A stretch of 64,000 nt of DNA. Origin: Odiellus spinosus (taxonomy: Eukaryota; Arthropoda; Arachnida; Opiliones; Phalangiidae). Position 1 is the stretch's first letter; each line of letters begins with the position of its first letter. The notes beneath the pieces are model-generated. The model did not search any database. It saw only the letters and a list, made by a program, of their open reading frames with translations, and had not been told where the DNA came from. Made by a program: the position numbers and the translations under genes. Location: contig OY987240.1 of the NCBI GenBank assembly GCA_963920705.1, forward strand, positions 4,697,426-4,761,425, written 5' to 3'. Below are positions 1,083-34,389 of the stretch, one piece after another.

Positions 1083-4000
1083 ATGGCCGATTATTCAACA
1101 ACCTCTTCATCTTCTACCGCTAGTGATTCGGAGTCACCTTCTTTCCCTAATCTTAAACGTTTCTATCACATTCAACGCCGCTTAAATAAACGTTCGTATA
1201 AATGGAAGACAAAAGAAATAGATGTCCGAATTCAATTTCATGATTTAACTAAAATTCCCGTTAAAGACTTTTATAAAGTCTTTAAAAGAATTTTAGCAGA
1301 AATAATTCGTGAAATATTATTGGATCGCGAAAACTTTACTCATTTGCGTTTCAGTTTAAATTCCGAAAGTTTAAATACGCCAGTTAATATAAATTTAATT
1401 AAAATAGACAAACTCACCCCCAAGCGTATTATTCGAACGTTAAGTCGGGTAATACAATCAAATTCGAAAGACTTGATTGTAGAAAGTGATAACTGGAAAT
1501 TTGATTTAATTTTCATAGACTTGCCTCAAAATATTGGTGGTTATCAACGTTCGGTTAAAAACAGAACTTTAGCTAACATAAACGACTGGCTCCAAAAAAA
1601 TTCCAATTTTATTTTTATTGACAATGACACGGATAATTTTTGTTTCGGACGAGGCATTGTATTAGGTCAATTACTCGCGGATCGATTTTATTTCACTGAA
1701 ATTAAACAGCTCGAATTATTTGACCAAAAAGAATTTCAAAAAATTAAATACGGGAAAAAAATACAATTAAAAATGGCCAAAGAGTTACACGAAAAAGCGG
1801 GTCTAGATGAAGGCGCCGTAAATATGATTAGTATTAACAAAATGCAAAATTTTTTACTTCCCCTTTATCGAATTGTTATAATAGACGCTTTAGATCAATA
1901 TAGTATTTTTTACGAAGGTCCCGACGCCCCTCGTTATATTTATCTATTAAAGGTAGGCTCTCACATTCATGTCGCAAAAACTCTTCATTCAATAATGGGA
2001 GGTAGAAGTTCGTGTAATCCTTGTTTAAAAACGTTTCATACAGATTATCAAAAAAGGAAACATAGATGTCCGAACACAACTGAATATATTTGTTTTCGTT
2101 GTCAGTCTCCCGCTTATCATACTATGAATAATTTAGAACGGTGCACGGAATGTTTTCGCTACTTTGCTCGAGGAGCTTGTTTTGAAGCGCATATTTCTAA
2201 CGGAACATGCGAATCAAAAAAGAGGTGCTTAAAATGTGGACATTTACTAGGTGAAAATCACGATTGTTTACCCCGTTGTCAGCGTTGTCTAATTAAACAT
2301 CCCGAACAATTGCATTACGTCATGCCCCTTTGCAGCCCACGTGAAAAAAGTCGGTTAATTTTTTTTGATACTGAAACTATTTTAGAAAACGATATTTTTG
2401 TTCCCATTTTATTAATTAGTGAAGCTGAATTAGAAAATGGTAGTTACGAAAAAATGATTTTTTATGGAAAAGATTGCATCGACAAGTTTTTAGATTATAT
2501 TCTATCAACGGAAGTGACTGTTGGTTCTCAAAAAATTAGAAAACGTAAAACTAGAAAGGCGCGCTTCCATGGGTTTTCTATATTAGGTCACTATGCACAA
2601 GGTTTCGACCTGTACTTCATTATAAGAAAGTTAATTGAGCGAAATTTATTGCCCTTTCTTATTTATGACGGTTCCAAAATTTTACTTATCTCTTTAAAAA
2701 ATTTACAGTTAAGATTTATTGACAGTTATTCTTACGTCGCAGCCCCTTTAAGAAATTTTACGCAAATGTTTGGGCTTGATGATGACGTAGTGAAAGGATA
2801 TTTTCCTTACTCTTTTTACAATAACTCGACTTTAGATTACAAAGGGGCACTGCCACCAAAACATTATTTTAGCCCGGAAAAAATGAAAGATCAAGATTTC
2901 TTAAATTTTGAAAAATGGTACGAAAGTCGAGAAAAGGAAGAGTATGACATTCACGAAGAAGTTTTAAAATACTGTAGCCAGGATGTAAAATTGTTACGGG
3001 AAGGAATGGAAATTTTTCGAGACATTTATTTAAAAATTACGAATTTTGATATTTTGTTTTCCTAACGTCACGATTGCCGGGTGTCTAACTACAATTTTTC
3101 TAAACAATTATCTTCAACCATACACAATGGGTATTGTCCCTCCCAATGGGTATAACAATCAATTTGCCTATTCTCAAATTAGTTTAAAATATTTAGCTTG
3201 GTTTGAAAAACAAGAAGGCGTAAAACTTCAAACAGCTTTGTACGGAGGGGAAAAACAAGTTGGCCCATACCGATTAGACGGCTACTCTAACGACCCACCG
3301 TTAGCTATTAATTTTGATGGCTGTTTTTATCACGGTTGCGAGCTTTGTTTGGCTTTAAATTCTTATAATTCGCTATTAAAAACAACCAATAAGCATCTTC
3401 ACGAACGCACTTTGGATAGAGATATTTTTATTCGAGAAACTCTTCCAAACCATAAATATATTACAGTAAAAGAATGTCAATTCTATCGTTTTTTGAAGGA
3501 AAATGCCGAAGCCAAAGCTTTTTGCAAAAGTTTAACATTACGCCCCCGTATTAATGGACGTAGCGCTTTATACGGTGGCCGCTGTAGCGTTTTCAAATTA
3601 AAAAGCGTTCCCCAAACACATCAAACTATAAAATATTTAGACATAATTTCGCTTTACCCCCATATTTGTCGCGATAAGGTTTTTCCGGGATTACACCCTA
3701 GTATTATTACCTCTAACTTTAATTACGAAGCAGATGCGTACTTTGGGGTGGTATATACCCATTGAATAGAATCCTATTGGACCGAATTCCCATTGGTCCG
3801 AAATAAAAAATAAATAGTCCCAATCAACCGAATCTTGGCCGACCGAGCCCAATGCACCGAATTCCCATTGAACCGAAATCCCGCTGAACCGAATCCCGCT
3901 GAACCGAATCCCCCATAGACCGAATTTCCCATTGGGCCGAAACCAAAAAGGGCGTCCCGATGAATTTAAGCCGATAATGGTTAGGTTAGGTTAGGTTAGG

Positions 4001-5371
4001 TTAGAATGTGTTAATGGACTTCTGATTGTGAACGTCTGTCGAATGGGATTCGGTCGAATGGGATTGACGGTCGAATGGGATTCTGGTTTACGAAAACGTA
4101 TCGGTTGAATGGGATTGTGGATCGAATGGGATTCTGTCCAATGGGATTCTGTCCAATGGAATTCTGTCCAATGGTCGAGAAGCCTTTGGGGTTATTCACG
4201 CGCGCGTACTGCCCCCCCAAAATCTTTATATTCCCGTTTTACCCGTTCGAGTGCATGGAAAATTATATTACCCGCTATGTAAAATGTGTGCTAAATTTCA
4301 GTTAAACGTTTGTAATCACGGAGAGAACGATAGAGCCTTAGAAGGCGTTTGGGTGAGCAACGAGCTCTACTGGGCCGTAAAGTATGCTAATTACAAAATC
4401 TTAGATATTTACGAAGTTTATCACTATCACAAACAAGAAAATTTCTTTAGTCAGTACATGACGGACTTTATTGGCCTTAAAATAGCGAATTCGGGATTTC
4501 CAAGTGATGCTGTCACAGAAAAAAAAAAAAAAATTTTGTCGAAAAAATTAATCAAAGTGAAAAATTAAATTTTAATATTTTTGACATTACTGATAACCCT
4601 GGATTGCGTCATGTCGGGAAATTAAATATTAATGCGTTGTGGGGGAGGGTAGGGTTGAATACGAACCATAATAAAACAATACTAATTAATAAATATGCAG
4701 AATTAATTAAATATTTAGGAGACCCTAGCGTGGAAATAGCCGATTTGCGACCCGTAACTGACGAAATTGCGATGTTGAGTCTCAAAAGCGAAAGCGATTA
4801 CGCGCCTTCGTATAATTACGGTAATGCTATTGTAGCTAGTTTCGTTTCCGCTTATGGGCGTATTAGATTAAATGAAACTTTGTTTAAATTGGACAGGGCT
4901 TGCGCGTACGCAGATACGGACTCGTGCCTTTATATAGCTACCCCCGGGGCGTGGGAACCTTCTATTGGCACTGCGGTAGGCTCGTGGGCCGACGAATTAA
5001 AGGGCAATTCGATAGATTTATTTATGGCGACGGGACCAAAAAGTTACGTCTATAAATTAAAAGAATCTCAAAAAATTGTACAAAAATGTAAAGGCATCAC
5101 TTTAAATCGTGAAAATGTCAAAGCTATTGGCCTAGAAAATTTCGAAGAATTAATCATGGATCCTCAAAAAGAATTAACGCTCCAAATTCCCTTTAACGTA
5201 AAAAGACATAAAATACAGATGGCCCTAGAGTCGACCAAACCGACCAAAAAGTTTAGACGCACAAATGATAAACGATATATTTTAAATAATCTCGACACTT
5301 TGCCTTTCGGCTACAAAGCGGACGGAAGCGAAAAAAATGAATCACGAATTGACCCGCCTAGAAAGTTTTAA
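1083..5371 (+). pseudogene. polB: Protein-primed family B DNA polymerase of Polinton 1, disrupted
   Basis: This gene would copy the linear element from protein-primed ends. The first 660-residue block has a long N-terminal region with several CxxC zinc-finger-like pairs, then the exonuclease motifs: DTE at about residue 429, a GxxxxGFD motif at about 507 and YCSQDVKLL at about 630. Polymerase motif A (DIISLYP) is near 3640-3660, motif B (LNINALWG) near 4620-4643 and motif C (ADTDS) near 4910-4925. A TGPKSYVYK thumb segment follows near 5031. There are three breaks: a one-base frameshift near 3055, a 434-bp MULE-like insertion at 3750-4183, and a frameshift at the A-run near 4520. The start ATG follows the upstream spliced gene by 13 bases, and the 3' end overlaps the BIR ORF. 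It cannot be translated as it stands. Confidence 0.9.
3741..4192. mobile_element. MULE-like non-autonomous insertion in the polymerase gene
   Basis: CTTTGGGGT at 3741-3749 is repeated exactly at 4184-4192, a 9-bp target duplication typical of Mutator-like elements. The 434 bp between them is built from degenerate repeats of a GACCGAATTCCCATTGG-type unit on the left and its inverse on the right, so it folds back on itself. A (TTAGG)n run sits at 3979-4004. The polymerase frame stops just inside the left end and resumes at the right target copy. The small ORFs within it are repeat artefacts. Confidence 0.7.
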
Positions 5372-5810
5372 AGGGCGTTGGAAAGGTTGCATTCCCATTG
5401 AAGCCTTAGCCAAAGCTGGATTTTTTTTATTAGACTCGAAAATTCAAGCTTGTCAATGCTTTCAATGCGGGCTTAATTTATATCGCTGGGAATGTTTAGA
5501 CATTCCCTTTAAAGAGCACGAAAAATATAGTCCAAATTGCGATTTTGTTACTAAACGAAATTTGACTACGAACATCCCTCTCGTACCATTTCAACCGCTT
5601 CAAACTGGTTTTGACGAATGTGGCAGCATTCCTTTCGCGAAATATAACTCGAATCCAAGCGGTAAAGATGAAAGGGGGCGTATAGTAAATACAATAATAA
5701 ACGGTGCCCCTGAAAAAACTATCGTTGAAGAAAAAATTAAATGTCCACCCTTTATAAATAGCCAATCATGCCCAAGAATGGAAACAGGCACGTGCATTTT
5801 TCTAAAGTAA
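5337..5810 (+). CDS. BIR-domain (IAP-like) protein of Polinton 1
   Basis: The protein has 157 residues. The N terminus carries a single BIR fold: R7..SF at the start, AKAGFF at residues 25-30, then the zinc ligands C41-x2-C44-x16-H61-x6-C68 with the conserved W51. This is the canonical BIR spacing. Such domains bind caspases or IAP antagonists in cellular and baculoviral inhibitors of apoptosis, so an anti-apoptotic role in infected cells is the likely inference. No RING finger follows; the C-terminal half has no domain I recognise. The ATG overlaps the end of the polymerase frame by 35 bases. The 3' end overlaps the start of the PPP1R15-like gene. A homologous gene occupies the same position in Polinton 2. 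Confidence 0.85.
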   Translation: MNHELTRLESFKGRWKGCIPIEALAKAGFFLLDSKIQACQCFQCGLNLYRWECLDIPFKEHEKYSPNCDFVTKRNLTTNIPLVPFQPLQTGFDECGSIPFAKYNSNPSGKDERGRIVNTIINGAPEKTIVEEKIKCPPFINSQSCPRMETGTCIFLK

Positions 5811-5950
5811 TTCAAATTTATGAAATCCCCGCGGAAAATAGAAAAAATTATAAATGGATTGATCAATTACGTTTTCAACATAAAATTAAAAAATTTGAAC
5901 AAATATTTTTAGCGTGTAAAAGAGGACAAGATTTAAAAAAGGAAATATAA
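5768..5950 (+). CDS. Small PPP1R15/GADD34-like PP1-binding protein of Polinton 1
   Basis: The protein has 60 residues. Residues 7-11 (RHVHF) fit the extended RVxF docking motif for protein phosphatase 1. They are followed by a beta-like stretch, an Asn-Arg pair near 24-25, W30, and R35-F36..K39-I40. The order RVxF, aromatic-rich strand, acidic/Arg, Trp, RFxx(R/K)I matches the C-terminal core of PPP1R15 regulators, which direct PP1 to phosphorylated eIF2-alpha. Cellular GADD34/CReP and several large DNA viruses use this core to restore translation. The ATG lies inside the 3' end of the BIR ORF in another frame. The counterpart in Polinton 2 matches the motif set better. The family call is by eye and is an inference. 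Confidence 0.6.
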   Translation: MPKNGNRHVHFSKVIQIYEIPAENRKNYKWIDQLRFQHKIKKFEQIFLACKRGQDLKKEI

Positions 5951-6070: not shown

Positions 6071-6815
6071 ATGAATGATAATACTTTAAAATTTATTACT
6101 CCATTTCGAAGTTTAATTTGCGGGCCTTCTATGTGTGGTATGCTTTTTTGCCTGTATTTTATTATTAATAAAATTATATACATATATAATAATCTAGCAT
6201 TTAAAAAAAAAATGTGTTTTCTTTATTTTTATAGGAAAAAGCACTTTTGTCTCTAATTTTTTAAAACAATTACCATTAATTACATACCCCCCTCCCGAAA
6301 AAATAATTTATTGTTTTCAAGCTTATCAACCCAATTTTGACGTTTTACGCCAGACACTTCCCAATATTGTTTTTATTCAGGGTTTACCCGATTCTAACGT
6401 TGAATTTTGGGAAAAAAATCGTAATTCACTTATTGTTTTGGACGATCTAGCTAATGAAATCTTTAACAATCCTTTTATCGCTAATTTAGTGACCGTCAAA
6501 TCGCATCACTTTAATATTAGTGTCATGATCCTTTGTCAAACTTTATTTCCGAAAGGCAGCCAAGCTCGGTTAATATCTCTAAACACTTGTTACATTATTT
6601 ATTTTAAAAATCCCCGAGATTCCTTAGGAATTTCTTTGTTAGGCTCGCAAATCGCTCCTGGTCAGGGGAAAAAAATAGTAGAAGCATATAAACTAGCGAC
6701 GCGAGAGCCCTATAGTTATTTACTCATAGACAATAAACAAGAAACACCTGACCTTTTAAGACTAAGGAGTCGTATTTTAATTAACGAAGCACCGATGATA
6801 ATTTATTGTGATTAG
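6071..6815 (+). CDS. FtsK/HerA-type genome packaging ATPase of Polinton 1, spliced
   Basis: This is the A32-like ATPase that would pump DNA into capsids. The first exon ends at 6137 in the middle of Walker A (GPSMCG). A GT-AG intron follows (6138-6234, 97 nt; donor GTATGC, acceptor TTTTTATAG). The second exon resumes with the GKS part in frame and runs to the stop at 6813-6815. Walker B is the LIVLDDL stretch near 6430-6450; ILCQT and IIYFKNPRD follow as in Polinton ATPases. ATG 6071 is preferred over the in-frame ATG 6044 because it aligns with the start of the Polinton 2 copy. Total length is about 215 residues, normal for the family. Without splicing the P-loop would be destroyed. Confidence 0.8.
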
Positions 6816-11014: not shown

Positions 11015-11196
11015 GGCTCAAACCAGATATTACAATTTTTTTAATGTTTATAAAAGCAGGTTTAATTATTTTTCGCCAACCTGGCTGGCGAAAAATATTA
11101 AAGACGTCTTTAATATTTTTCGCCAGCCAGGTTGGCGAAAAATAATTAAACCTGCTTTTATAAACATTAAAAAAATTGTAATATCTGGTTTGAACC

Positions 11197-13451
11197 ATGA
11201 TCTTAAGAACTTTCCTTATCAATAACATCAATGTGAGAGTCACTTGGAATTTGGAGATGGCTCCAAATACATGTTACGCGTGCAATCGGAAAGTTACCAA
11301 TAGTACAAGTAGAGGTATAGGCACTCACGTAAAGGCTGGCTTTGCTCGTTTTCTTCGTTTTAGTAAAGGGTTATTACCACTTGTAATTAATAGCAAAACA
11401 ACGAAGATTTGTTTAAAGTGCTCGGGTTTGTCACGAAAGTTTCAAACGTTCTTAAATGCTAGCAAATCGTCCTTCAGTAGTGATCATGGCTCTTCAACGT
11501 CATCGTCTTCACCACAAAAACGAAGACAAATGACGCAAGTATCTAATCCATCAACGTCAACAGTACCTGAGCCATCAACGTCCACAGTACCTGAACCAAC
11601 AAAGTCCACAGTATCTAATCCATCACCGTCACCAATACCTCAGCCATCAACGTCGCAATTACCACGAAAGCGTACGTCATCAAACACTATTGCCATAAAG
11701 CACAGTTGTGTTCGGCCCCTGCCAAAGACTTGCTTCATTTGCGGTGTTAGTACACGAACCAGGGTAAAAGCCGAAGTGAGAACAAGTATATTTGTGGAAA
11801 GAGCCATATTTATTCATCGGGACAACCGAATGTGCTCCACGCATCTCGTTAACGGAGAGCTTCCCACCGAAATAATTGCTGGAATTCAGGTTTCCGCTAG
11901 ATCAACCATTATGACTGCCACGGACATTGAGCAACTATTACAGGACCTCAGGAAATGTGTTAACGACCTACGGACGCCGAGCTTTGACAACTTCATACAA
12001 AGTGATGAAGACTGTAAAGTATTAACTTCATTGTCCCTGCACGAGTTCCTAGAGTTGCATTCGACTATTGAGGACATTATTCGTACCATCAGATGCTGTT
12101 CGTCGAAGACAGCTCTAGCAGTATTATTGGTGAAATTACGATTGGGTATCTACAATAAGGTGTTATAAACTTTATTTCATTTAACTGAAAGATCGGTATC
12201 AAACACGGTAAAAGCGGTTATTATGGCTTTATCGGAGCATTTCGTGCCACATCATTTTGGCCTGCAACACTTATCACGTGACAATCTGATAACAAACCAT
12301 CAATCTGGAGCAGCAGTAAAACTCTTTGCTAACAACAAGCCTAATTGTCTTATTACCATTGTAGATGGCACCTATATCAAGGTTGGAAGATCCAAGGACT
12401 ATACCGTTCTTCACAAATCCTTCTGTGTGCACAAAGGCCAGCATATCCTCAAGCCAATGTTAATGGTAACAACTACGGGTTACATAATAGATATAATCGG
12501 ACCCTACTTTGCTAATGGCCGCAATAACGACGCGCGCATTTTAAACCATTCTATCAAAAAGAGAGAAGAACTCCAGTCTTTCTTTCAAGTTGGTGACGTT
12601 GTACTGGCAGACCGCGGTTTTCGAGACTCCAACAGCGTACTGACTGAACTGGGTGTGGATTTACAAATGCCTTCGTTCTTGTCTAAAGGCGAGAAGCAAG
12701 TAAACACGCAAGAAGTTAATCGTTCCCGACAAGTAACGTACCTCAGGTGGCCGGTTGAAGTTAGGAATGGGCATTTGCAGACGGTGTATCGTTTTTTTTT
12801 CAAAACCGTATACCTGTGCATATGTTACCATTAGTTCCGGAACTTCTTCAAATTGCTGCTGCGCTGTTGAACGCCTACCACCCGGAGTTACATCTTAAAG
12901 GTTCCTGGGAAGACTCCGTCGAAAAAATGCTGGCAGTCTCTACGAAAGAAAATCCTCTTAAGGAAGTAGTTGAGCGCGATAATCTGCTTCGCAAACCGTC
13001 TAAATGGCAACGAATTGAGGATAGTGAATTTCAAGACTTCCCTGTACTTCGTGAAAGTGATGTACGTGAGGTGGTAATGAGCGACTTTAAAACGAAACGC
13101 GCTGAATCTTATGTGGCGTTGACTATAGAGAAATCCGGCTCTTTCAGCGTCGAAGTGTCCAAAGTTGAACATGACTTAATTCGTATACGCGTGCCTGGTC
13201 AATTTTCCACCTCAGCTGTTCACCAAGCTCTAATTCGTTATGTACCGAACGGGACAGGTGCAAATGCCATTAAAGGCTGGGATTGCAATTGCAAAGGTGG
13301 TAGTTTGACGATAGGTACTTGTGTTCACGTTAGCAGCGTAATCTGGTATCTTGGTTATCGTCACCATGAAGATCGAGGCAGTTGGTACCAGTCAAAATTG
13401 CGTGTAGTGTGTGAAGATGCCACTGAGCTTGAACTACCAGACATACGTTAA
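11197..13451 (+). pseudogene. Right-arm DDE transposase with SWIM finger, two lesions
   Basis: This is the mirror copy. Here the zinc-binding block and the nuclease form one continuous frame, unlike the left arm. That frame ends at a TAA near 12166-12168, where the left arm has TCA. A second break is a frameshift in a lengthened T-run near 12790-12800. The DDE residues, SWIM finger and C terminus are otherwise intact. The left-arm break is at a different place, so the two copies have non-overlapping lesions. Confidence 0.8.
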
Positions 13452-14066: not shown

Positions 14067-14480
14067 TTATGGGGAGTTGCTGTTGTTCTTTGAATAATAC
14101 ATTTTATTTATAATATCACTATAATTAATATTATTACAGCGAGCCGTTAAAAAGTAGACACAATGCAAACCGCACGTTTCCGCCCGAGTTGGTTGTATCT
14201 GATTTGTATTATAGTATATTTTGGGATGATATTTTTCGAGAGATAAATTATAAAAATCCGGCCCTAAACCGAAACTATCAAAAAATTCTAATTTTTCTTT
14301 AGTTCGAAAAACCGCTAACCAATGTTGACCTTCTTGATTGTGCTTATCAGTGTTGAGAATAAAACAATAAGTTTCTTGATGAGGGGGCTTTGGTAAGCGG
14401 TCCCTAGGAAAGACCCCTAGAAAGTATTTTCGAGTTTCAGGATTGCAATGCATAAGAGCCATGAGCTGATACGTATCCAT
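14067..14480 (-). pseudogene. Adenain-type cysteine protease of Polinton 1, C-terminally replaced
   Basis: This protease would process virion precursors. Counted from ATG 14480, the catalytic residues are H53 (QHW), D68 (FFDSFG), an oxyanion Gln near 94-96 and C103 (ETCG). An earlier TTG at 14495 overlaps the integrase stop but is less likely as a start. The last seven codons (to TAA 14067) lie within the palindromic transposon, so the native C terminus has been cut off. The missing continuation seems to lie in the other flank, minus strand just left of 8123, where the translated frame resembles the C terminus of the Polinton 2 protease. The catalytic core is intact. Confidence 0.85.
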
Positions 14481-14491
14481 CTTGTTTTTCT

Positions 14492-15451
14492 TCAAGTTTC
14501 TGGTAAACGGACTCGTTGAAGCTCGTTCGCGTAAAATGGACCCGCAATTTCTTCGTTTTTCAAATCTTTGAGTTTGTACACCGGAGGGTGGCGTTTTATA
14601 ACCCGGTCAACGACAAATATTTCGGGTGTAAACGTCCCGGTATAAATCTTTCTAAAGGCCCTTTCACCCACCGACAGACGGACCAGATCTCCTTTTTGTA
14701 ACGACGTTGATTTTTTAGAAATATTTTTCACACGTCCGTATAGCGTGTTCCAAACAATATTTTCGTTATGTAACGTGACTTGATCCGGTGCTATATTAGT
14801 CGTACCATGAACTCGAGCGTTGTACGCTTTTAAAATTTGAGGCAGATATTGAATATAATTATTTTGCCTCGTATGTGTCAATATTTTATAAATTTGACCC
14901 TTCAAGGTTCGAATAAATCGTTCGGCGATAGCCGCTTTATGGGTGCCTAAAGCGAAATAAAGCGAGACGCCATGTTTTTTGAGGAATTTCTTAAAGGCGT
15001 TATTATCATATTCTTTCCCCATATCGGTAATTAACTTTAAGGGTTTTCGATATCGAAAGATATCCCGAAAAGCTTTGATAATTTCCACACTAGATTTATC
15101 TTTTAAAGGTCTAGCGAAAGCGTAGCGGCTTAAAATGTCAACGGCGACTAAAATAAATCTCACATTTTTATTGTATTTTTTTAATTTAGGTAAATCAATT
15201 AAATCCGACTGCCAAGTTTCATTAAGACTATTGACGAATATTTGATTCGTTTTAAATCGTTTTCTTCGAAATCGATGCCTAGTGTACGATTTTTGACTTT
15301 CTAACCATTCCAGTATCACTTTACGAGAAATATCTGGAAATTCCTTATTTAAGATCTCTACGTTGCTGTACGAGGCGGGATGTTCGATATTATAATACAC
15401 CGCCTTTAAGCGTTTTTTAATAGGGGCAGATAATTTCGATATTTTTTTCAT
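14492..15451 (-). CDS. Retroviral-type DDE integrase of Polinton 1
   Basis: The protein has 319 residues from ATG 15451. An N-terminal basic helical region (1-70) is followed by the rve catalytic core with D83 (QSDLIDLP), D143 (ITDMGKEYD) and E177 (AAIAERFIRTLK). The D-to-E gap of 33 residues fits the D,D-35-E group. An SH3/chromo-like C terminus follows (residues 245-315: KGDLVRL, FTPEIFVVD). It would insert linear element DNA into chromosomes with short target duplications. It is uninterrupted and all catalytic residues are present. It reads in the same direction as, and directly into, the protease. Confidence 0.9.
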   Translation of the reverse strand: MKKISKLSAPIKKRLKAVYYNIEHPASYSNVEILNKEFPDISRKVILEWLESQKSYTRHRFRRKRFKTNQIFVNSLNETWQSDLIDLPKLKKYNKNVRFILVAVDILSRYAFARPLKDKSSVEIIKAFRDIFRYRKPLKLITDMGKEYDNNAFKKFLKKHGVSLYFALGTHKAAIAERFIRTLKGQIYKILTHTRQNNYIQYLPQILKAYNARVHGTTNIAPDQVTLHNENIVWNTLYGRVKNISKKSTSLQKGDLVRLSVGERAFRKIYTGTFTPEIFVVDRVIKRHPPVYKLKDLKNEEIAGPFYANELQRVRLPET

Positions 15452-16309: not shown

Positions 16310-17626
16310 TTATTGCGGGGTGTAGATGACATCTCGTTCTTGAGAAATAAGAATCGTGTTTTCAAATTCAGCGTATATTAAAACGCAAACATTTTCCGGC
16401 AGGGGTTTTTCAAATTTCATGGAGATTCGGACGCTGCCTGTTTGCGTCACGGAGCTGTGACTTGCCGAGGCGAGATGCTCTTTTGTAAGGTCCAACGCGT
16501 ATAAACAGTTTCCATGAAGATATCTCTGATATGATATCCCATTCCCGCTGTCTGTCAGATCCGTGTCAAGGCCATCAAACAAAGATTGGTATTCACGGGT
16601 GTAATTAAGAGATTTATTCGTATTGAAATTTGGGGTAAAAGCCTGGTCAGGGAAATTTAGCGTACCGACGGTTATTTGAAGAAAGTTTAAGGTGAAGTGC
16701 TTAAAATTAAAGGGATTTGTATCGAGCGAACCGTTTTTACATTTATTCGTTACCAACCCAATAACAACACGGTTGGGAACTAAACCTAAAAATACGTTTT
16801 CCCTCACGACATCCGTTGAGTTCGCCATGATAACGAAACTTTTCATTGTGACATTTGTCAAAGGATAAATGGCGGGAGTTTTTCTCATTACAGCCGCGTG
16901 AGACAAAACAATTTGGTCCAATACTTCTACATGTTTGGCGTATAAACTAACTTCGACAAGTTCAATTTTATATTGTTTATTCGCTTCTGTGCTAATAATA
17001 GAAAAAGCGTTAGGAGCGCGAAGTAATCTAACTCGAACATCCACATCGTTAATTAAAAATTTATCGAGTTTAGTAATATCTAAAAATAAAGGGCCTAAAA
17101 ATTCAAAAACATTTGATTGGTGGACAAAAGTAGAGCGAGTTTTAATGCCATTTTTAATAGAATCAGCCGCGACAAAAGCATCGTCTGGCTTAGAGGGATA
17201 ATCACTGTAATATCCCCAATTGGTTAATTGACTTTCTTTGGCCGCCGGCCCGTAATTTAGATGAGTTGCCAACTAGGCCTGATATGGATAAAGAGCATTT
17301 GAAGATTGTACCGGTTTAGTTCCAAGATACGCTTCAACTTGGCTAAAAAGACTCGCGATAGGAATGTTACTTAAGGAAACTTTTTTCTCGTCAGGTTCTA
17401 AAATACTCCCGTCCGTATGAATAATACGCGCTCTAACTTTAATGCGTAGTTTTGATAAATCAAGATATAATGGGTTTCCAGCGATAAAAAACTCTATTTG
17501 CTCGGTATTTTCATTGACGGGGCTGATGGGATGATACTGAGTCGTTTTATTGGAAATAATATTTCTATTTAATAAAGGGCGAGTAAACAAATCTAAATTC
17601 GACATCATTCCTTCGTAAAGAGCCAT
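16310..17626 (-). pseudogene. Capsid-type protein (F54H12.2-like), one in-frame stop
   Basis: The frame opens at ATG 17626 and runs 117 codons to TAG at 17275-17273. It then continues in the same frame for 320 codons to 16310. The residue before and after the stop fits a Tyr-to-stop change. The protein resembles the family annotated in many invertebrate genomes as uncharacterized protein F54H12.2-like, which sits in the structural block of Maverick elements. I infer a major or minor capsid (jelly-roll) role. The total of about 438 residues is typical. The second block begins with TTG rather than ATG, so it is not an independent gene. Stop read-through cannot be excluded, but decay is more likely given the other lesions. 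Confidence 0.75.
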
Positions 17627-17633
17627 TTTTTTT

Positions 17634-18056
17634 TCAATCTAAATAATCCGATCTAATTTGACGGGGTTTTCTGCGTTTTTTCCGTGGATTTTTAAAACGT
17701 TTGTCAGAGCCTAGTTTTGAACCCCTGCGTCTCCTTTTATTGCCACTTCCACTCTGAGGTCTAATGGTATTATCCACCACTTTATTTATCAAATTGGCTA
17801 CGGCAATTCGCGAGTTTCTTTTTAAACTGGGTTTAGGCTCCATACCTCCTTGAATATCTTTAAGAATGTTATGACTCATGCTTAACGCTTCGGTGCCCAA
17901 ATTTGAAGCTAACGGTTTTAAAATTGGCGTAACATATTTTAATAAAGACCTAAAAATTGAACCGAGGCCTCTGCCGGACTGATATACCCCCCCGTGAAAA
18001 CCGCGGATACCACCCCCTTTTTGCTGAGAACTATTATATTCAAGATATCTATTCAT
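17634..18056 (-). CDS. Basic GG-motif virion-like protein (pVI/pX-like)
   Basis: The protein has 140 residues from ATG 18056, which overlaps the stop of the 956-residue gene by eight bases. It has an N-terminal Gly-rich segment (QKGGG, GRGLGS), an amphipathic or hydrophobic helix near 33-60 (FRSLLKYVTPILKPLA), then IQGG-M at 68-72, which fits the adenain cleavage consensus. It ends in a strongly basic tail (KRRRRG, PRKKRRKPR). The combination recalls adenoviral membrane-lytic or core precursors. The assignment is by architecture only. Confidence 0.6.
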   Translation of the reverse strand: MNRYLEYNSSQQKGGGIRGFHGGVYQSGRGLGSIFRSLLKYVTPILKPLASNLGTEALSMSHNILKDIQGGMEPKPSLKRNSRIAVANLINKVVDNTIRPQSGSGNKRRRRGSKLGSDKRFKNPRKKRRKPRQIRSDYLD

Positions 18057-20919
18057 AATGACGATTCTTTATGAAATGAAGCTTTACTAGAGTTCGACCT
18101 TTATTTGTAAAGGGAATTAGTTCGTTAAAATCCGTTTTTAATTCAATTTCTATAATTCGATTTGAATCGAGACGTAAGGGATAATAATCAATGTTTAAAA
18201 AATTCGCTTCATTTTGATCGATATTCTCTTGGTTGGAATTTTCAATTTTGAGGACTCTTAGCAACATGCTTTCTGTATCACCCGTTAATTGCGGTAATAT
18301 TATATCGCTATAAATATACATAATGTGAATGCCTCTTTGTAAATCGTATGGATATTCGCTCGTCACTTCTTTGTAAACGGCGTCTTGATCGATTCGAAAG
18401 CCTAACATATCACCTAACCCCCCAAGATGATCGTCGGGATGTGAGACGTAATGAAAACAAATCCAAATATTTTTATCGCACGAAACCTTGACCGTCCCAT
18501 TTTTATTTACCGAAAACTGAATACTTTTTTGGTGAATCTCTGCGGGTAAGGCTTCAATCATAGCAGAAAAAACATCTTCTATTGACGTGTATGTCCCGAT
18601 GGGAATTTCGCAAGTGTAAACTTTGGTGTTTTGCTGGAATAAGGGTTGGTCGCTATAAAATGATAAATCACCCGCCTTTCTTTTTCTTATAAAAACTTTT
18701 TGATTGGCCTCTTTATCACGATTCATTTCAAACGCAAATTGAAAACTATTCGGTTCAATGTCAATCTTCACCACGAGCGGATCGAGAGTACCCCCTTGGT
18801 AATAAAGACTAACGTATTCATCGGATGGAAATTTAAATAAATCGGCTAAAGATTCGCTCATTTTGAAACGAACACCCGCCGGTAATTCTACCGCGAGTCG
18901 AAAATCGTTTTCGTTTACTTTTAAAATATTAAAAGAACATCCCCTTAGTTGACGTAATTTTATTTGTTCTCTTAAAGCGGCTAAAATTTTTAAATGCAAC
19001 CCAAATGGAATAATTTCTTTATTTTGACGATTGTACATAGGCATATAATTTTTACTATCCAGTCGAACAGAAGTTTCCGTATGGTCACCACCCATGATAA
19101 ACAAATGATTGTGAACTCGAAAATTAATCGAACTATTTTTATCCGCTTGAAATTTCTTATAATTAGCGTGTAAATTTCTAGTACTAACTAATATATTTTT
19201 TTGATATCTGCTTAACTCTAAATTTAAAATATCAGCGAGAGAGCCGCTAATTGAACACTCGACGTACGGGGGGAGACTAATTTGAAAGTATTTTTCTTCA
19301 TTACGATTGATAATGTCAAATTTTATATTATAAGCGCGCAAAGGCTCGTAATTTAAACTTTCTTTTAATTTTTCTAAAATCTCTTCGTACATGGAAAAGG
19401 GAACATAAACGTTATTTTCATCCATTTTCCCTTTAAAAACTATTTCAGGATCCAAATTAAAATTATAGTAAACGTAATCGTTTTGGTTCGAAAGAACCGG
19501 GTTACCAAATGGATTTATTCTGTAATCGATATAATTACCATTATCCTTAATATATATTTTTTCTGTTTTGGGGTCCATAAAATTATAGCCCGTAATATTC
19601 GAATGAAACGCGTATGGAATATTTAAGAGCTGACTTAATTGAGGCGATAAACGAATTTCGATACCTGGAGGAGCTCTCATGGTAAAACTAGGATCATTCG
19701 CGTAATTAAATTCTACTTTAAAAACTACCCCCCGAACTCGATTAAATATAGTTAAACTAAACGCGTCGCAAATTTTTTGGGCTAAGGTCTCGTTAATAAC
19801 GCGTCCTCGTTCGTCTAAATCAGCGGATATGCTCCCCGGTTTCATCAAAACCCTGTAATTTGCCCAGTGTTCGTACGAAGTGGGGGTTGGCGGGGGTAAA
19901 GTTGTTATCGCCGGGCTCAATGTAGGTACTGATTTATTTTCTGGGGCCTTTTCAAGCGGTATCGGCTCAGACTCTACTACGGGGGCCTCGATACCAGATT
20001 GATCCGCTTCTTTCGTAAGAGGTTGAATAGGGGGAATAGATGGCTTGAAGGGCGTGGTTTCTTTAAACGACGGTTTTGCGCTTATAGATGGAGGGATATC
20101 GATTTTTACAGCCTCGGATATTTCAGGGGAGTTAATTAAAGTAGTTTCACCCGGAGGTTTTGAATCTGCTATATAATCCGACTGCGAATTTTTCTTGGGC
20201 ACTTTTGAATCGAACACGTTGCCTGCCAATAATCTTCTTTCAACCAGCGGAGACGGAATTCTGATATCAATGTAATTATTTGTATATTGCAAACTTATCG
20301 TCCTAGCGTACTTGCTTAATGGTATAGGACTTAGAAAATTATCTTTAACAAATTCGTTCTCTCTAAATTCGAATACAGTTGCTAACGGAGACATGGAAGG
20401 AATCCGTACTTCGACATTATTTGCCGTGCGAATGCTCAAAAACCGAGGTAATTTTTTGTCAATTAACGGATTTTTTGAAAATAGCTCTAAATGTTTATTA
20501 TTTCCCGCCAAACGATTGGTAATACCAAATTCGATTTTGTCCCTCGTCAGCTCGTTCTCTTGAATTAGTTTACTAATTTCATTAATTAGCATTTCTTGCA
20601 AAGAATATTCTATAATTTTATCATTTTGGGTGGTGGCTTTATAATTTCCAGGCGGTAATTCGAGTTTATAGTAAATATAGGGTTCGTCTAGTAAATTATT
20701 TTGACTATTTTCGTCCGTCAATATCCAAAATTTGTTATATTTAGGACCGCTTACGTTATGCCAGGACGCGGGATAGATTATTTCGCTTAACCCTACACTC
20801 CATTCGTGATTATTAAGTTGTAGCTCTTTAACGAGTACATTTTTAAACGAACTTTGAGTATTATTTGGAAAAATATCGAGTGAAGCGTTAGAGCTTAAAG
20901 TACAATGGAATTGTTCCAT
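18049..20919 (-). CDS. 956-residue modular structural protein of Polinton 1
   Basis: The single uninterrupted frame from ATG 20919 is the longest intact gene here. The N terminus (LSSNASLDIFPNNTQSSFK, then VGLSEIIYPASW) and the C terminus (LQRGIHIMYIYSDIILPQL, then LHF) match a widespread metazoan Maverick-associated family of large virion-like proteins. The middle contains about four or five degenerate modules of roughly 100 residues. Each has a helical stretch and ends in a Pro-x-x-(V/I)-x-(I/F)-(R/S)-x-S-x-x-L pattern before a (L/I)GF or (L/F)xF-like segment, for example near residues 160-180, 425-440, 560-575 and 700-715. A Pro-rich linker (TTLPPPTPTS) lies near residue 345. It is likely a minor capsid or fibre-like component; the exact role is unknown. 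Confidence 0.65.
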   Translation of the reverse strand: MEQFHCTLSSNASLDIFPNNTQSSFKNVLVKELQLNNHEWSVGLSEIIYPASWHNVSGPKYNKFWILTDENSQNNLLDEPYIYYKLELPPGNYKATTQNDKIIEYSLQEMLINEISKLIQENELTRDKIEFGITNRLAGNNKHLELFSKNPLIDKKLPRFLSIRTANNVEVRIPSMSPLATVFEFRENEFVKDNFLSPIPLSKYARTISLQYTNNYIDIRIPSPLVERRLLAGNVFDSKVPKKNSQSDYIADSKPPGETTLINSPEISEAVKIDIPPSISAKPSFKETTPFKPSIPPIQPLTKEADQSGIEAPVVESEPIPLEKAPENKSVPTLSPAITTLPPPTPTSYEHWANYRVLMKPGSISADLDERGRVINETLAQKICDAFSLTIFNRVRGVVFKVEFNYANDPSFTMRAPPGIEIRLSPQLSQLLNIPYAFHSNITGYNFMDPKTEKIYIKDNGNYIDYRINPFGNPVLSNQNDYVYYNFNLDPEIVFKGKMDENNVYVPFSMYEEILEKLKESLNYEPLRAYNIKFDIINRNEEKYFQISLPPYVECSISGSLADILNLELSRYQKNILVSTRNLHANYKKFQADKNSSINFRVHNHLFIMGGDHTETSVRLDSKNYMPMYNRQNKEIIPFGLHLKILAALREQIKLRQLRGCSFNILKVNENDFRLAVELPAGVRFKMSESLADLFKFPSDEYVSLYYQGGTLDPLVVKIDIEPNSFQFAFEMNRDKEANQKVFIRKRKAGDLSFYSDQPLFQQNTKVYTCEIPIGTYTSIEDVFSAMIEALPAEIHQKSIQFSVNKNGTVKVSCDKNIWICFHYVSHPDDHLGGLGDMLGFRIDQDAVYKEVTSEYPYDLQRGIHIMYIYSDIILPQLTGDTESMLLRVLKIENSNQENIDQNEANFLNIDYYPLRLDSNRIIEIELKTDFNELIPFTNKGRTLVKLHFIKNRHYE

Positions 20920-23753: not shown

Positions 23754-24520
23754 AATCGAAGAAAAAGGTTTCCGAGAAATAAAACTTTTGTTAATTCTAA
23801 AGACGAAATATTCCAAGCGGACCTGGTAGATCTACCCCAGTTGGCCAAATTCAACAATAGATATCGATATATTTTAACGGTTTTTGACGTGCTATCGTGC
23901 TACGCTTGGGCTAAACCACTCAAGAAAAAAACGGCTAAAGAAATTATTCCGGCTCTCGAATCAATTTTTCGAGAACGAACTCCTTTAAAGTTGAATACAG
24001 ACGCGGGTACCGAATTTATAAATAAAGAAGTTCAAGCTTATTTTAAACGTAAAGGGATCCTCTGGTACGCTAGTTATGGTAATATAAAATGTGGGATCAT
24101 AGAGCGTTGGAATAGAACTTTAAAAAGCCGAATGTTTCGACTTATGACCAAGAACCAGGATTATAATTACTCGAAACATTTACAAAAATTGGTTGATGGT
24201 TACAACCAAACTGTCCATTCAACCATTGGGATGGCACCCAAAAATGTTACTATAAATAACGAACATCTTGTCTGGAAAAGATTATACATGAATAGAAGCG
24301 TAAAAAGAAAAGTCCCAAAGTTACGAGTCGGTGATCTGGTTAGAAAGGCGTCTGATAAAGGGGTTTTTGCTAAAGGTTATACGGGGTATTGGACAACTGA
24401 AATTTTCGTCTTTAAAAAGGTCTTATTTCGAGATCCGCCGCTTACGTCATACAAGACGAAAATGATGAAATAATTAAGGGTAGCTTTTACGAGCCCGAGC
24501 TTCAAAAAATCGAATTATGA
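23754..24520 (+). pseudogene. Polinton 2 DDE integrase, N-terminally truncated and frameshifted
   Basis: The frame is open from 23754, after a TGA, without an ATG. It begins at the RRKRF segment that aligns with residues 62-66 of the Polinton 1 enzyme. The catalytic residues are D at 23820-23822, D at 24000-24002 and E at 24102-24104, with the same 33-residue gap as Polinton 1. The frame ends at 24473, but a shift near 24440 gives a second frame whose C terminus (SFYEPELQKIEL) matches the Polinton 1 end and stops at 24518-24520. That stop overlaps the protease ATG. Non-functional. Confidence 0.85.
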
Positions 24521-26104: not shown

Positions 26105-28207
26105 TTATGAACAAATGTAAGGTTAGAAAGAGTCGATCCCATTAAATTGGTTCTTCGCGGTCCAAGGGTTGACCCTGTGCTTGAAAATACGCGTTCGTCA
26201 CTCGTTTGGGAAGCAGGAATTCCTAGTACTCTTTGTGCAACATTTTTCAATCCTGACAAGTCCGAAGTGTTTGACCAAAAATCGAGAACTGAAACAGGAT
26301 TTCCTAAAAATATATTATAGGAATTGTAAAATAGTCTTTATGTACGGAAATTGAATTTAACTCACCAACGACAGATTTTAATTTCAGTTTTATATACCGC
26401 TCAAACTCAGCTTCTGCTTTTTCTTCACATGTAACTTCTGCATCCGTTTCAAAACCTTCTTCTTCTGATGAATCTTCAAATTCGGCTAATTTCGAAACCT
26501 TGCTCTTGGGAGAGCCTGCAGAACTTGTATAGCCACTAGCCGCACTTTAAGTTCTTGTAAAGATTTCAGTCTCATATCTGTGACTGCTATGTAGGCGTTG
26601 GTACTCCATAGCCAGTTGAGATTTTAATTCCGAGTAGGCCTTCTCTCTTATTTCATTGGTGGCAAATTTAAGTTTGCGATATCTGTTAAAATAAAACCGA
26701 TGAATTTCGGGTGAAACACAGCTGTAATTAAAATATTACTTAGGGTTAAGCAGCGTGGCAACGTAGTGAAATGTATCTAAACAGCAGTATTCTTTGTAGC
26801 ATTCTCTTGCCTGTTGTTTCAGCAATTTTAACTCCATCGAGTCGAGATCATTTTCTTGAATATGATCATTAATGATATGCCACCACGGAGCAACTTCGTG
26901 AATAGTTGGCTTCTTTTCTTTGCTAAACACCTCAGTTGTGTCGCGGAAAGGTTTTAAGAAGTTAATGAATATTTCCAATACTTGATCATCTATTTGGGAT
27001 ATTCGATGCAGTTGATTTTTTTCTAACAAAATTTGCTTAATTTGCTTGGCAGACTTCATGTACGACTCTAACATAATGAGAATACTGTTCCACCTGGTTG
27101 GAACCTCTTGTTTCAATGAGTATTCTAAACCTGAGTTTAAACCCGACCTTTTGAAATAGGCAACCACGGTCTTAACTCCTTGAAGGGTAGAATCAATTTT
27201 CGGACATTTATCCTTTAAAACAAAAAAAGCTTCTTTTTTGGCAAAGATTTCCCATCTGAGCTTTTAATTTTCTTTTGGTCCATTGCAGTATTATTTAACA
27301 TCCACGTTATAAAAAGATTTAATTTGTGGCACTGGCAGTTAAGGTGATGTTTTAATGGAAAACGTTTCGTCATATTTGAACCTCCATCTGTCACTATCCA
27401 AGATAATTCCATTACATCGTTAGTCAGTTCGTCGAAATATTTCTTTAGAATATTGGTCAACTGAAAACGTAGATTTTCCTTTGTTTTCTTTTCGAAATCA
27501 AATTCGTCAACCGCGAGCATCCTACATACTAATTTCCAATTACGGTCTATGTAATGAATAGTGAGAGAGATGAAGCTCCTCTGTCTAAATCTGTCAGACC
27601 ACATGTCTGTGGTAAAAGTAAAAACCGGTGACTGGGGTGCAACAAGCAAGTCATTAATTATTTCTTGCTGTTTTGTCGATAATATCGATGGAAGAATCTG
27701 TCGCTTTAAAGTTGTACGGTGGTATATAACTTCGGAAGCATTTTGATGACCGTGTCTCGCTCCGAAATCAATTAATGCCTGACTTATATGTCTGAAACCT
27801 TCACCCTCAACTGACCCCAAGGGCCGCAAATCCTTCGACAGGCCAACAACAATGCTATTGTTTAAAGATAGTACTTCTCCCGGTGGTACCTTTCTAGAAA
27901 AACAACTAGTCACAGACGGTTGGTTTTGACCCTTTTGGATTAAGGTTTTTGAAGGATTTGGTTGAGTTACTCGAGTAAGACTAAGAGACCCAGATTTGAC
28001 CGCCCAGCAATAATTTTCTTGGTGGCGGTTTAAGCTCGACGTTCCGATTTTGGCTTGATAAGAAATTATACTTTTACATTTTTGACATTTAACAAAGGGT
28101 TGTTCATTAACGTCTACAAAAACGATATCAAAGGTTCCCCATATAGATGACGTTTTACGAGAAGACGAGTTGTTTTTAAATATTATTCTGTTACTGTTTT
28201 GAGCCAT
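26105..28207 (-). pseudogene. hAT transposase (BED finger, hATC dimerisation), broken
   Basis: The frame from ATG 28207 has a BED-type zinc finger (CQKC near residues 39-42, H and C near 61-66). It continues with the hAT catalytic region (FTTDMWSDR near 198-206; WIVTDGGSN near 268-276; HHLNCQCHKLNLF near 285-297). A frameshift near 27225 moves to the frame ending at 26736. A GT-AG intron (26739-26683) then joins to the next segment with KLKFATNEIREKAYSEL. The hATC motif (IPASQTSDERVFSSTG) is near 26292-26105. The internal stops and shift make it inactive. Confidence 0.8.
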
Positions 28208-28294
28208 AAGTCCTATAAAGGCTTTGCCAAACGTTTCTGTAAATAATTATAATAATATGAAATATAAATTACATTTCCGAGATATATTATTTAG

Positions 28295-33210: not shown

Positions 33211-33855
33211 TTATTTGTCATCGCAAACAATAATCATATTTCCTTCGTGAGGGAATAGGTTACTTCTTAAACGTAACTCGTCAGGCATATTTTGTTTTAA
33301 ATCTATACACAAGTAAAAAAATGGATTAGCAGCCGTCACTAGATGAAAAGCTTTGGCCACGAGATTTTTGTTATGGGGAAATATTTGTCTACTCAAGTAG
33401 TTTATTTGACTTCCATCGCGAGGATTTTTGAAACATATGATATACGAGTAATTAAGGCGGCTTTCTTTTCCTTGCCCAAATAGATTTTGAGTTAACAAAG
33501 CCACTGACACATTTTTATGGTGTCAGGAAACACAGTAGATACTGGCGATGTGCGCGTTATTATAACAGGTAAAGGCCAAATCGTCAATAATTAAAAATTT
33601 ATGCAAATTTTCATCCCAAAAATTGGGATCTTCTGGTGGCAATCCTTCTATAAACTCCAAATTTTTTACCTCTTTCTGCATGTCTTTAAATTTTTGTTGG
33701 TACTCTTTATAACAGTACACGATCCTATTGGGTGGAGGTTCAATTAAAATGTCGGCGTTTTTTAAAAGGTTAAATATCCAGGTGGTTTTGCCACTCATGG
33801 TTGGACCACTCACCAACAGCTGCATTGGGGCTTGAAATTTGATTCGGCACGACAT
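33211..33855 (-). pseudogene. Polinton 2 packaging ATPase, one frameshift, no intron
   Basis: ATG 33855 opens a frame with an uninterrupted Walker A (GPTMSGKTT, residues 17-25) and Walker B (LIIDDLAF near 88-95). The frame shifts near 33515-33525, and the rest (ALLTQNLFG, then IICFKNPRD, ending at 33211) is in another frame. Unlike Polinton 1, the P-loop is not split by an intron. The ATG lies within the 3' end of the PPP1R15-like gene. Confidence 0.8.
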
Positions 33856-34004
33856 TTTTCAAATTTAAACTCAAAATCTCTAATTCTCTTTTTAAAACGG
33901 AAATGATTGACAAAATTCCAATTGGTCCGATCCTCGATAGGGATATACCAAATAACCGTTATCTCGTCAAATGTCACCTTTTTTATACTCTTTTCCAAAT
34001 CCAT
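33810..34004 (-). CDS. Small PPP1R15/GADD34-like PP1-binding protein of Polinton 2
   Basis: The protein has 64 residues from ATG 34004. K9-V10-T11-F12 is a textbook RVxF docking motif for PP1. It is followed by a beta-like ITVIWYI stretch, an EDR (24-26), W29, RFKKRI (36-41) and a helical FEFKFEKC. This order and spacing match the conserved C-terminal core of PPP1R15A/B, where RVxF and nearby residues hold PP1 and the RFxxRI helix helps contact actin/eIF2-alpha. I infer an eIF2-alpha dephosphorylation role against host translation arrest. The gene overlaps BIR upstream by 38 bases and the ATPase downstream by 46 bases. Confidence 0.7.
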   Translation of the reverse strand: MDLEKSIKKVTFDEITVIWYIPIEDRTNWNFVNHFRFKKRIRDFEFKFEKCRAESNFKPQCSCW

Positions 34005-34389
34005 CCAATACCACCTCTCGTACTGCTTTCACAAACCTCAAAATATGTTTGTTTTTCATCAAAATGGTGAGTTTTTCCACAGCTTTGGCCAATTTTTCTT
34101 GATGGGCTTCTTCGTACGCTTTCAAATTAGTTTTATCCTGATCGAGTAAAAAGGCGCAAAACGGGGCTTCTCTTTGATGTACGCTCAGTGGATATTCATC
34201 GTTACTGCTTTCGCTCCAGTCAAATTCATTGTGACAACAGAAACATCTAGTCTTACAGCCATCGTTCAAGTAGAAAAAACCCGCTTCAGCTAGTTCCGAA
34301 GCTAGATACGAGTGGCGTGGCAAGTGTTTCGAGGCCGTCAACCAATTGATATTGTTAAAGGTCTCCAATCTTTTACTTTCACGATACAT
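33967..34389 (-). CDS. BIR-domain (IAP-like) protein of Polinton 2
   Basis: The protein has 140 residues. The BIR signature spans R7-LETF, ELAEAGFFY (32-40), C49-x2-C52, W58, H71-x6-C78. The C-to-H gap is two residues longer than in the Polinton 1 copy. The C-terminal half is Lys/Glu-rich and helical. The ATG sits at the edge of a dispersed repeat that begins near 34388, so the native start may be lost; in Polinton 1 this point overlaps the polymerase gene. Likely an anti-apoptotic element protein. Confidence 0.8.
   Translation of the reverse strand: MYRESKRLETFNNINWLTASKHLPRHSYLASELAEAGFFYLNDGCKTRCFCCHNEFDWSESSNDEYPLSVHQREAPFCAFLLDQDKTNLKAYEEAHQEKLAKAVEKLTILMKNKHILRFVKAVREVVLDGFGKEYKKGDI

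Follow-up and report, generated by a model that had tools for sequence, protein, structure and literature searches.

The question raised by this locus is whether a 64-codon open reading frame (ORF) in a Polinton of Odiellus spinosus encodes a protein of the PPP1R15 type, as proposed in the first-pass annotation of the 64,000-nucleotide stretch of DNA analyzed here (the window). On the evidence presented below, it is probable that the ORF product, P0001, is a minimal, intronless homologue of the functional core of PPP1R15 (GADD34/CReP), which is carried by Polintons beside a BIR/IAP-like gene and would recruit PP1 to eIF2-alpha.

The ORF and its neighbors in Polinton B

The coordinates and motifs reported in the first-pass annotation were reproduced, with the ORF on the minus strand. 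Its product contains, in order, KVTF (residues 9 to 12), EDR (residues 24 to 26), W29, and RFKKRI (residues 36 to 41). Among these and the neighboring residues, KVTF corresponds to the RVxF docking motif, I21 to the phi-phi position, R26 to the Arg-pocket residue, and RFKKRI to the helix. The gene does lie between BIR and ATPase genes, as had been claimed, and it overlaps both. The features of the element that carries it (Polinton B) are as follows.

33810..34004, minus strand: PPP1R15-core-like protein of Polinton B (P0001), 64 aa, ATG at 34004 and stop at 33810
33967..34389, minus strand: BIR (inhibitor-of-apoptosis domain) protein, directly upstream of P0001, Pfam BIR E value of 1.6e-11
33211..33855, minus strand: packaging-ATPase gene of Polinton B, weak AAA/Adeno_IVa2 Pfam matches and homology to the Polinton A ATPase
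23754..24473, plus strand: integrase, B half of the window, similar to the Polinton A integrase at 14492-15451 (44% identity, E value of 5e-69)

The BIR gene and P0001 share 38 nt, and the 3' end of P0001 is overlapped by 46 nt by the ATPase ORF at 33523-33855. As the ATPase gene is broken by an in-frame stop, the element carrying P0001 is a decayed copy. The integrase at 23754..24473 was taken to belong to this element. The Polinton B region also contains a BED-finger, hAT-like transposase ORF at 27215-28246 (zf-BED E value of 0.0057, below the cut-off). When searched alone, P0001 matched no Pfam family at an E value of ≤10, and its sole match in the PDB was an NDUFB7 chain (E value of 1.7).

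A second Polinton with a related protein

The left part of the window, from about 0.4 to 21 kb, is filled by a second, divergent Polinton (Polinton A). When all six frames of the window were scanned for a relaxed RVxF...RFxxRI pattern, three matches emerged: P0001, 5768-5950 (+), and 62997-63122 (+). The last of these lies outside both Polinton genes studied and is probably due to chance. The match at 5768-5950 is a 60-aa protein of Polinton A (P0002), listed here with other genes of that element.

5768..5950, plus strand: PPP1R15-core-like protein of Polinton A (P0002), 60 aa, with HVHF, ENR, Y/W, and RFQHKI
5337..5810, plus strand: BIR protein, Pfam BIR E value of 1.8e-15
1083..3065, plus strand: DNA polymerase B, N-terminal part, Pfam DNA_pol_B_2 E value of 5.4e-20
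6525..6815, plus strand: ATPase, C-terminal part, homologous to 33211-33522 (47% identity, E value of 4e-26)
14492..15451, minus strand: integrase, Pfam rve E value of 1.3e-11
14067..14480, minus strand: adenain-like protease, Pfam Peptidase_C5 E value of 5.1e-6

P0002 is located between BIR and ATPase genes, the same site as that occupied by P0001, and overlaps its BIR gene by 43 nt. P0001 and P0002 align at 31% over 51 aa (pairwise E value of 1e-10; none of 2,000 shuffles as good), and their conservation is about equal to that of the neighboring BIR proteins of the two elements (28% over 89 aa). Polinton A carries PolB, integrase, protease, and packaging ATPase genes, as expected of a Polinton/Maverick, and the presence of these genes in the carriers agrees with the initial identification of the carrier as a Polinton. 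The region at 17273-17626 is presumably the capsid protein of Polinton A. This element further contains a 956-aa ORF (18049-20919), for which a viral-contig scan found no relative, and an insertion (8763-13451) in which two near-identical ORF pairs of opposite orientation flank a point at about 11.1 kb. The insertion is apparently a transposon duplicated in inverted form.

Copies and families across the genome

The assembly from which the window comes (443 Mb, 286 contigs) was searched with P0001, which yielded 286 candidates and at least 150 scored matches, P0001 included, all with E values of ≤1.6e-7 among the matches listed. These matches are not equivalent to whole copies; some are fragments. 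The matched stretch was free of stops in 112 of the 150 matches listed and contained a stop in the other 38. About 17 of these 38 form a group with a shorter product of 56 aa (read in L011, L012, and L027), and here the stop seems to be the genuine terminus of the protein. Of 28 loci (L001 to L028, where L001 is the window copy itself), 27 had a BIR match immediately upstream, and 27 had an ATPase match immediately downstream. With a homologue at the same gene position in Polinton A and many matches in the genome, P0001 is more than a chance motif.

Representatives of families F2 to F5 were 41 to 50% identical to P0001 and kept the pattern, as in RVTFDEIPVTWYFQTEDRVDWFYRD..HFKKRIKDFE. The first-pass annotation would have been contradicted by a lack of conservation of the motifs in related Polintons; instead, RVxF and RFxxRI were common to several families within this one genome. 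Motif losses among the fetched copies included KLTF in L005 and L006 and RL in place of RF in L009, and the RVxF part was gone from the frame read in L010 and L028. In family F5 (L021 and L025; about 65 aa), there are two successive FKKRI-like stretches (FRKKIKDF...FKKRIKD), reminiscent of a duplication of the helix. In L015, L022, and L023, no stop separates the PPP1R15-like frame from the ATPase frame, and the continuous reading of up to 235 aa may represent a fusion.

Resemblance to PPP1R15 and the F6 bridge to the host gene

A profile built from P0001 and P0002 only, without PPP1R15 information (A1), was compared with 177,635 distinct PDB sequences. Its top three matches were DP71L (E value of 0.0011) and PPP1R15B (E values of 0.052 and 0.073), with alignments extending from before RVxF to beyond RFxxRI. 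NDUFB7 ranked next (E value of 0.1), with the helix part only. Likewise, a profile of eight sequences chosen without PPP1R15 information (A3; P0001, P0002, and six loci) was matched best by two PPP1R15B chains and DP71L (E values of 0.008, 0.0084, and 0.012), with the NDUFB7 background (0.036) only threefold above these PPP1R15 matches. NDUFB7 was rejected as a true relative; its best stretch began only at profile position 17 and never included RVxF.

The Pfam model of the PPP1R15 core (PF10488, PP1c_bdg) was searched through the entire 443-Mb genome and gave 14 matches. The best of these, which scored above the cut-off, served as a yardstick for the Polinton copies.

C14:5247726-5247863 (L029 1450-1653): exon of the host's own PPP1R15, PF10488 score of 41.8 bits

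The other 13 matches scored 17.5 to 20.7 bits, below the cut-off, and no PF10488 matches were obtained in 14 control genomes. All nine of these 13 loci that were fetched contain one and the same ORF type, F6 (MRKVRFDSSVEIYYINSDEDRRNYHWRDAMRFRNRIKK...), which represents a third Polinton family; eight of the nine have a BIR match upstream. F6 matched PF10488 with an E value of 1.4e-4 and 22.0 bits (gathering score, 26.1) over residues 2 to 39, which cover both motifs; the other eight of the nine representatives compared here, including P0001, had no PF10488 match. In a phmmer search of the PDB, all five hits of F6 at an E value of ≤10 were PPP1R15B (four chains) or DP71L (one), the best at 0.0079, and the match to the PPP1R15B chains took in RVxF.

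F6 also matched the host PPP1R15 exon directly, at 42% over 48 aa (E value of 8e-9; 0 of 2,000 shuffles), in an alignment of residues 7 to 49 that begins immediately past RVxF and extends to LLHPIL. On the Polinton side, it matched P0002 (E value of 4e-10) and P0001 (E value of 1e-6; 0 of 2,000 shuffles for P0001) from RVxF through RFxxRI. As F6 matches both sides, the chain of homology leads from host PPP1R15 through F6 to P0002 and P0001. Direct comparisons of the host exon with the other proteins were weak: P0001 scored at the random level (1,170 of 2,000 shuffles equally good), and for P0002, F3, F5, F2a, and F2b, 29, 47, 179, 249, and 300 of 2,000 shuffles, respectively, were as good. BIR and ATPase controls gave no match to the host exon.

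A further profile, A4, matched DP71L (E value of 3.7e-5), PPP1R15B (1.9e-4 and 2.1e-4), and NDUFB7 (0.069) in the PDB; these values are partly circular, because A4 includes F6, which was found via the PPP1R15 Pfam model, whereas those of A1 and A3 are not. As hhalign comparisons with the host exon were weak and confined to the RF..RI helix (probability of 2% and P = 0.022 for A3; 9% and P = 0.0039 for A4), we relied on the pairwise match between F6 and the host instead. In an AlphaFold2 model of A4 (F6 sequence), a single helix spanned residues 17 to 55 (mean pLDDT of 69, pTM of 0.35); the predicted helix is compatible with an actin/eIF2-alpha helix and was not counted as evidence. The initial assignment as a PPP1R15/GADD34-like protein thus stands at the level of the family, through A1 and the F6 bridge, but not for P0001 alone, which has no significant Pfam, PDB, or host match. 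Similarly, the first-pass annotation had named as the support to look for a profile match that spans RVxF as well as RFxxRI; this was obtained with A1 (DP71L/PPP1R15B) and, below the curated cut-off, with F6 (PF10488) but not with P0001 by itself.

One F6 element, read on both sides, carries an rve integrase (E value of 1e-11), an A32-like ATPase (E value of 2.4e-5), a weak protease match (E value of 0.036), and what we take to be a capsid-like protein, without Pfam support. Its BIR gene (E value of 6.3e-19) overlaps the F6 ORF, and the ATPase does not follow the BIR-F6 pair. A third Polinton type was observed at C3:3882001-3902000 (L039-L040), with a chromodomain-containing integrase (Chromo E value of 3.8e-6) and a BIR and PPP1R15-like pair apart from the ATPase. 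Three long in-frame minisatellite arrays (unit SNDTNLIK / LVSFDLIK on two strands) are present at L039 458-4082.

Protein database searches with P0001, A4, and F6 returned no homologue (for A4, 125 candidates and none at an E value of ≤1), and viral-contig scans with R15 queries, the 956-aa ORF, and the integrase gave nothing useful. As these searches found no relative beyond one genome, the conservation shown here is that between element families in one host, not that across species.

Conservation and spacing of functional residues

Residues were compared among nine representatives of 56 to 104 aa, with V.F as the anchor of the alignment script. The functional roles of PPP1R15 residues were taken from passages of PMC4394352 and PMC8500838, and PPP1R15B numbers beyond those printed were counted from the PPP1R15B letters in the PDB alignment. 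Equivalents of the RVxF residues V641 and F643 were present in all nine representatives. The position of PPP1R15B I652 (F+9), which has a phi-phi role according to a passage of PMC4394352, was hydrophobic (I, F, or L) in all nine, and the Arg-pocket residue (PPP1R15B R658; R26 in P0001) was R throughout (9/9). E24 was also invariant (9/9), and the W662 equivalent was W in seven, including P0001, and Y in two.

In the helix, the equivalent of F672 (actin cavity; PPP1R15A F592; P0001 F37) was F in eight of the nine, that of R675 (actin Asp334; PPP1R15A R595) was R or K in all nine, and I676 (P0001 I41), the last I of RFxxRI, was found in every representative (9/9). The actin contacts of F592 and R595 are those described in a passage of PMC8500838. 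The eIF2-alpha-contact positions (PPP1R15A R587, R591, and R594) are occupied by V, R, and K in P0001. Among the representatives, the R587 equivalent was R in six and otherwise V or I, the R591 equivalent (P0001 R36) was R in four and H or Y in five, and the R594 equivalent was K in seven. Functional residues were enriched in invariant columns (P = 0.005, or P = 0.07 without the two anchor columns), a result that is not leaned on here.

The order of the motifs is that of PPP1R15, as originally proposed; the approximate PPP1R15-like spacing claimed along with it did not hold throughout. The distance from the F of RVxF to the Arg-pocket R is 14 in P0001-type proteins and P0002, as in DP71L; PPP1R15B and F6 have 15, and the host exon has 20. 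Between the Arg-pocket R and the phenylalanine of RF, the distance is 11 in all nine representatives versus 14 in PPP1R15B, DP71L, and the host, which makes the linker 3 residues shorter. F6 keeps RDxxRF and LLHPIL, the latter aligning with LLSAVL of DP71L, and P0001 is without such a stretch. The LSAVL residues of DP71L are needed for eIF2-alpha dephosphorylation according to a passage of PMC5346070. By inspection, the C-terminal actin segment (PPP1R15B F696-Q700) was not recognizable in the Polinton products; the C terminus of P0001 is an unrelated stretch, and the 56-aa F2-type products stop before the equivalent position.

Because the scores lie below the Pfam cut-off, the spacing is not canonical, and the C-terminal segment is missing, these comparisons support a divergent homologue of the PPP1R15 core, of the type of the viral mimics, and not a full PPP1R15 orthologue. 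In such a protein, by homology with PPP1R15A/B, DP71L, and ICP34.5, the N-terminal KVTF strand, the phi-phi residue I21, and R26 would dock on the catalytic subunit of host PP1, and W29 with the RFKKRI helix would hold G-actin and/or eIF2-alpha. PP1 could then dephosphorylate Ser51 of eIF2-alpha, and translation would go on during replication of the element or production of its virions. On this scheme, which we infer, P0001-type proteins would be expressed, would bind PP1 and actin/eIF2-alpha, would enable catalysis, and would benefit the element. Substrate direction is its weak step, because the linker is shorter and the terminal segment is missing.

The main rival explanation starts from this step. 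A PPP1R15-core homologue could bind PP1 without directing it to eIF2-alpha and could instead sequester PP1, compete with host PPP1R15, or serve another substrate, the shorter linker and the missing C-terminal actin segment having destroyed the eIF2-alpha geometry. Such a role would be in keeping with the PP1-docking V, F, and R being the best-conserved residues (9/9), with the distance of 11 rather than 14 between Arg pocket and RF, and with the variation at the eIF2-alpha-contact positions (R in 6/9 at R587 and in 4/9 at R591). However, the equivalents of F592 (8/9), R595 (R or K in 9/9), and the last I (9/9) are kept, which would be superfluous for PP1 docking alone, and LLHPIL of F6 aligns with the DP71L stretch reported as required for activity in a passage of PMC5346070. 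Overall, we regard an exclusive PP1-binding role as unlikely.

A generic RVxF-type PP1 binder, or an unrelated small basic Polinton protein that resembles PPP1R15 through convergence of short motifs, is very improbable. RVxF motifs are common among PP1 partners, and P0001 by itself has no significant direct match to PPP1R15; yet the profiles made without PPP1R15 information place PPP1R15/DP71L first. Furthermore, F6 connects host PPP1R15, PF10488, and PPP1R15B on one side with P0002 and P0001 on the other, a bridge by which convergence is already largely refuted.

Selection on the core

Selection was estimated by the Nei-Gojobori method over a 37-codon core. Among F2a, F2b, F3, F4, and F5, dN/dS was 0.05 to 0.18 in 8 of 10 pairs (pS of 0.49 to 0.74 and pN of 0.11 to 0.16), with the caveat that, in some families, the opening codons of the gene are shared with BIR; the other two pairs were saturated. 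As dN/dS was low at high synonymous divergence, the frame was kept by selection for its protein while F2a to F5 diverged. Pairs with F1, A, and F6 were mostly saturated, and the rest gave unreliable values of 0.24 to 0.83. The only F1 pair tested (F1 versus F1d; P0001 and L009) had a pS of 0.00 and a pN of 0.09, with nonsynonymous differences only, as expected for a copy decaying after insertion, and single genomic copies, P0001 included, may be dead. That the ORF is noncoding or dead in general, an accidental frame within a decayed transposon, is hardly conceivable: the broken ATPase gene of the same element, the stops in 38 of the 150 matches listed, and the F1 pair without a sign of purifying selection are in line with it, whereas the 112 of 150 matches listed without a stop, the frame kept between families (dN/dS of 0.05 to 0.18 in 8 of 10 F2a-F5 pairs), and the same gene order at 27 of 28 loci refute it for the gene family, which is no accident.

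Relation to known systems and meaning

The Polinton proteins share with cellular PPP1R15 (PPP1R15A/GADD34 and PPP1R15B/CReP; PF10488) the RVxF motif, the phi-phi residue at F+9, the Arg-pocket R, the W, and the RFxxRI helix, in the same order, and RDxxRF and LL-x-P-IL of F6 have counterparts in RDRCRF...IISPIL of the host exon. In contrast to the cellular proteins, in which the core lies inside a long protein, the Polinton representatives have 56 to 104 aa in all, an R-to-F distance of 11 and not 14, no recognizable terminal actin segment, and scores below the Pfam cut-off. The short form of DP71L of African swine fever virus (about 71 aa) is likewise a stand-alone short viral protein with the same 14-residue F-to-R spacing; it ranked first in the PDB search with profile A1 (E value of 0.0011), and its LLSAVL aligned with LLHPIL of F6. 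DP71L differs in retaining the 14-residue R-to-RF stretch and in belonging to an unrelated virus lineage, and P0001 is without its LSAVL-like stretch. Herpes simplex virus ICP34.5 and the baculovirus/granulovirus PPP1R15 homologues, likened here by description, are PPP1R15 cores in DNA viruses of different kinds; such copies are named in passages of PMC4394352 and PMC5704228. The baculovirus PPP1R15A homologue, of likely lepidopteran origin according to a passage of PMC5704228, sets a precedent for the acquisition of such genes by viruses of insects. The carriers themselves resemble Polintons/Mavericks (adintovirus-like) in their PolB, integrase, adenain-like protease, and packaging ATPase.

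Full-text literature searches found no description of a PPP1R15/GADD34-type gene in Polintons or adintoviruses, and within those searches the earlier statement that no such mimic had been described in Polinton/Maverick elements remains valid. Term searches found no eIF2, GADD34, or phosphatase in PMC11071296 (gene transfer among animal viruses) and no phosphatase or apoptosis in PMC8363768 (Drosophila adintoviruses). From sequence, the best reading is that of a known viral kind, an eIF2-alpha phosphatase mimic that would recruit PP1, in an unreported carrier.

PPP1R15 mimics in herpesviruses, African swine fever virus, and insect baculoviruses sustain translation in the face of the stress response of the host. 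A mimic in Polintons would extend this mechanism to elements long regarded as transposons and would speak for a life cycle that is virus-like and in conflict with the host. A small Polinton ORF would thereby gain a concrete, testable function, and natural variants of 56 to 64 aa with a 3-residue-shorter linker would offer a compact means to ask what the holophosphatase needs. The BIR neighbor suggests that apoptosis and translation arrest may be blocked jointly. We lean slightly toward the view that several diverged Polinton families carry a conserved counter-defense cassette of two genes, BIR and then the PPP1R15 core, which overlap in several families. If it works, these Polintons would behave as true viruses that have to counter apoptosis as well as translation arrest, and the genome would hold about 100 ORFs for small eIF2-alpha phosphatase regulators. 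In that case, some of these ORFs could be of use to the host or have effects on it.
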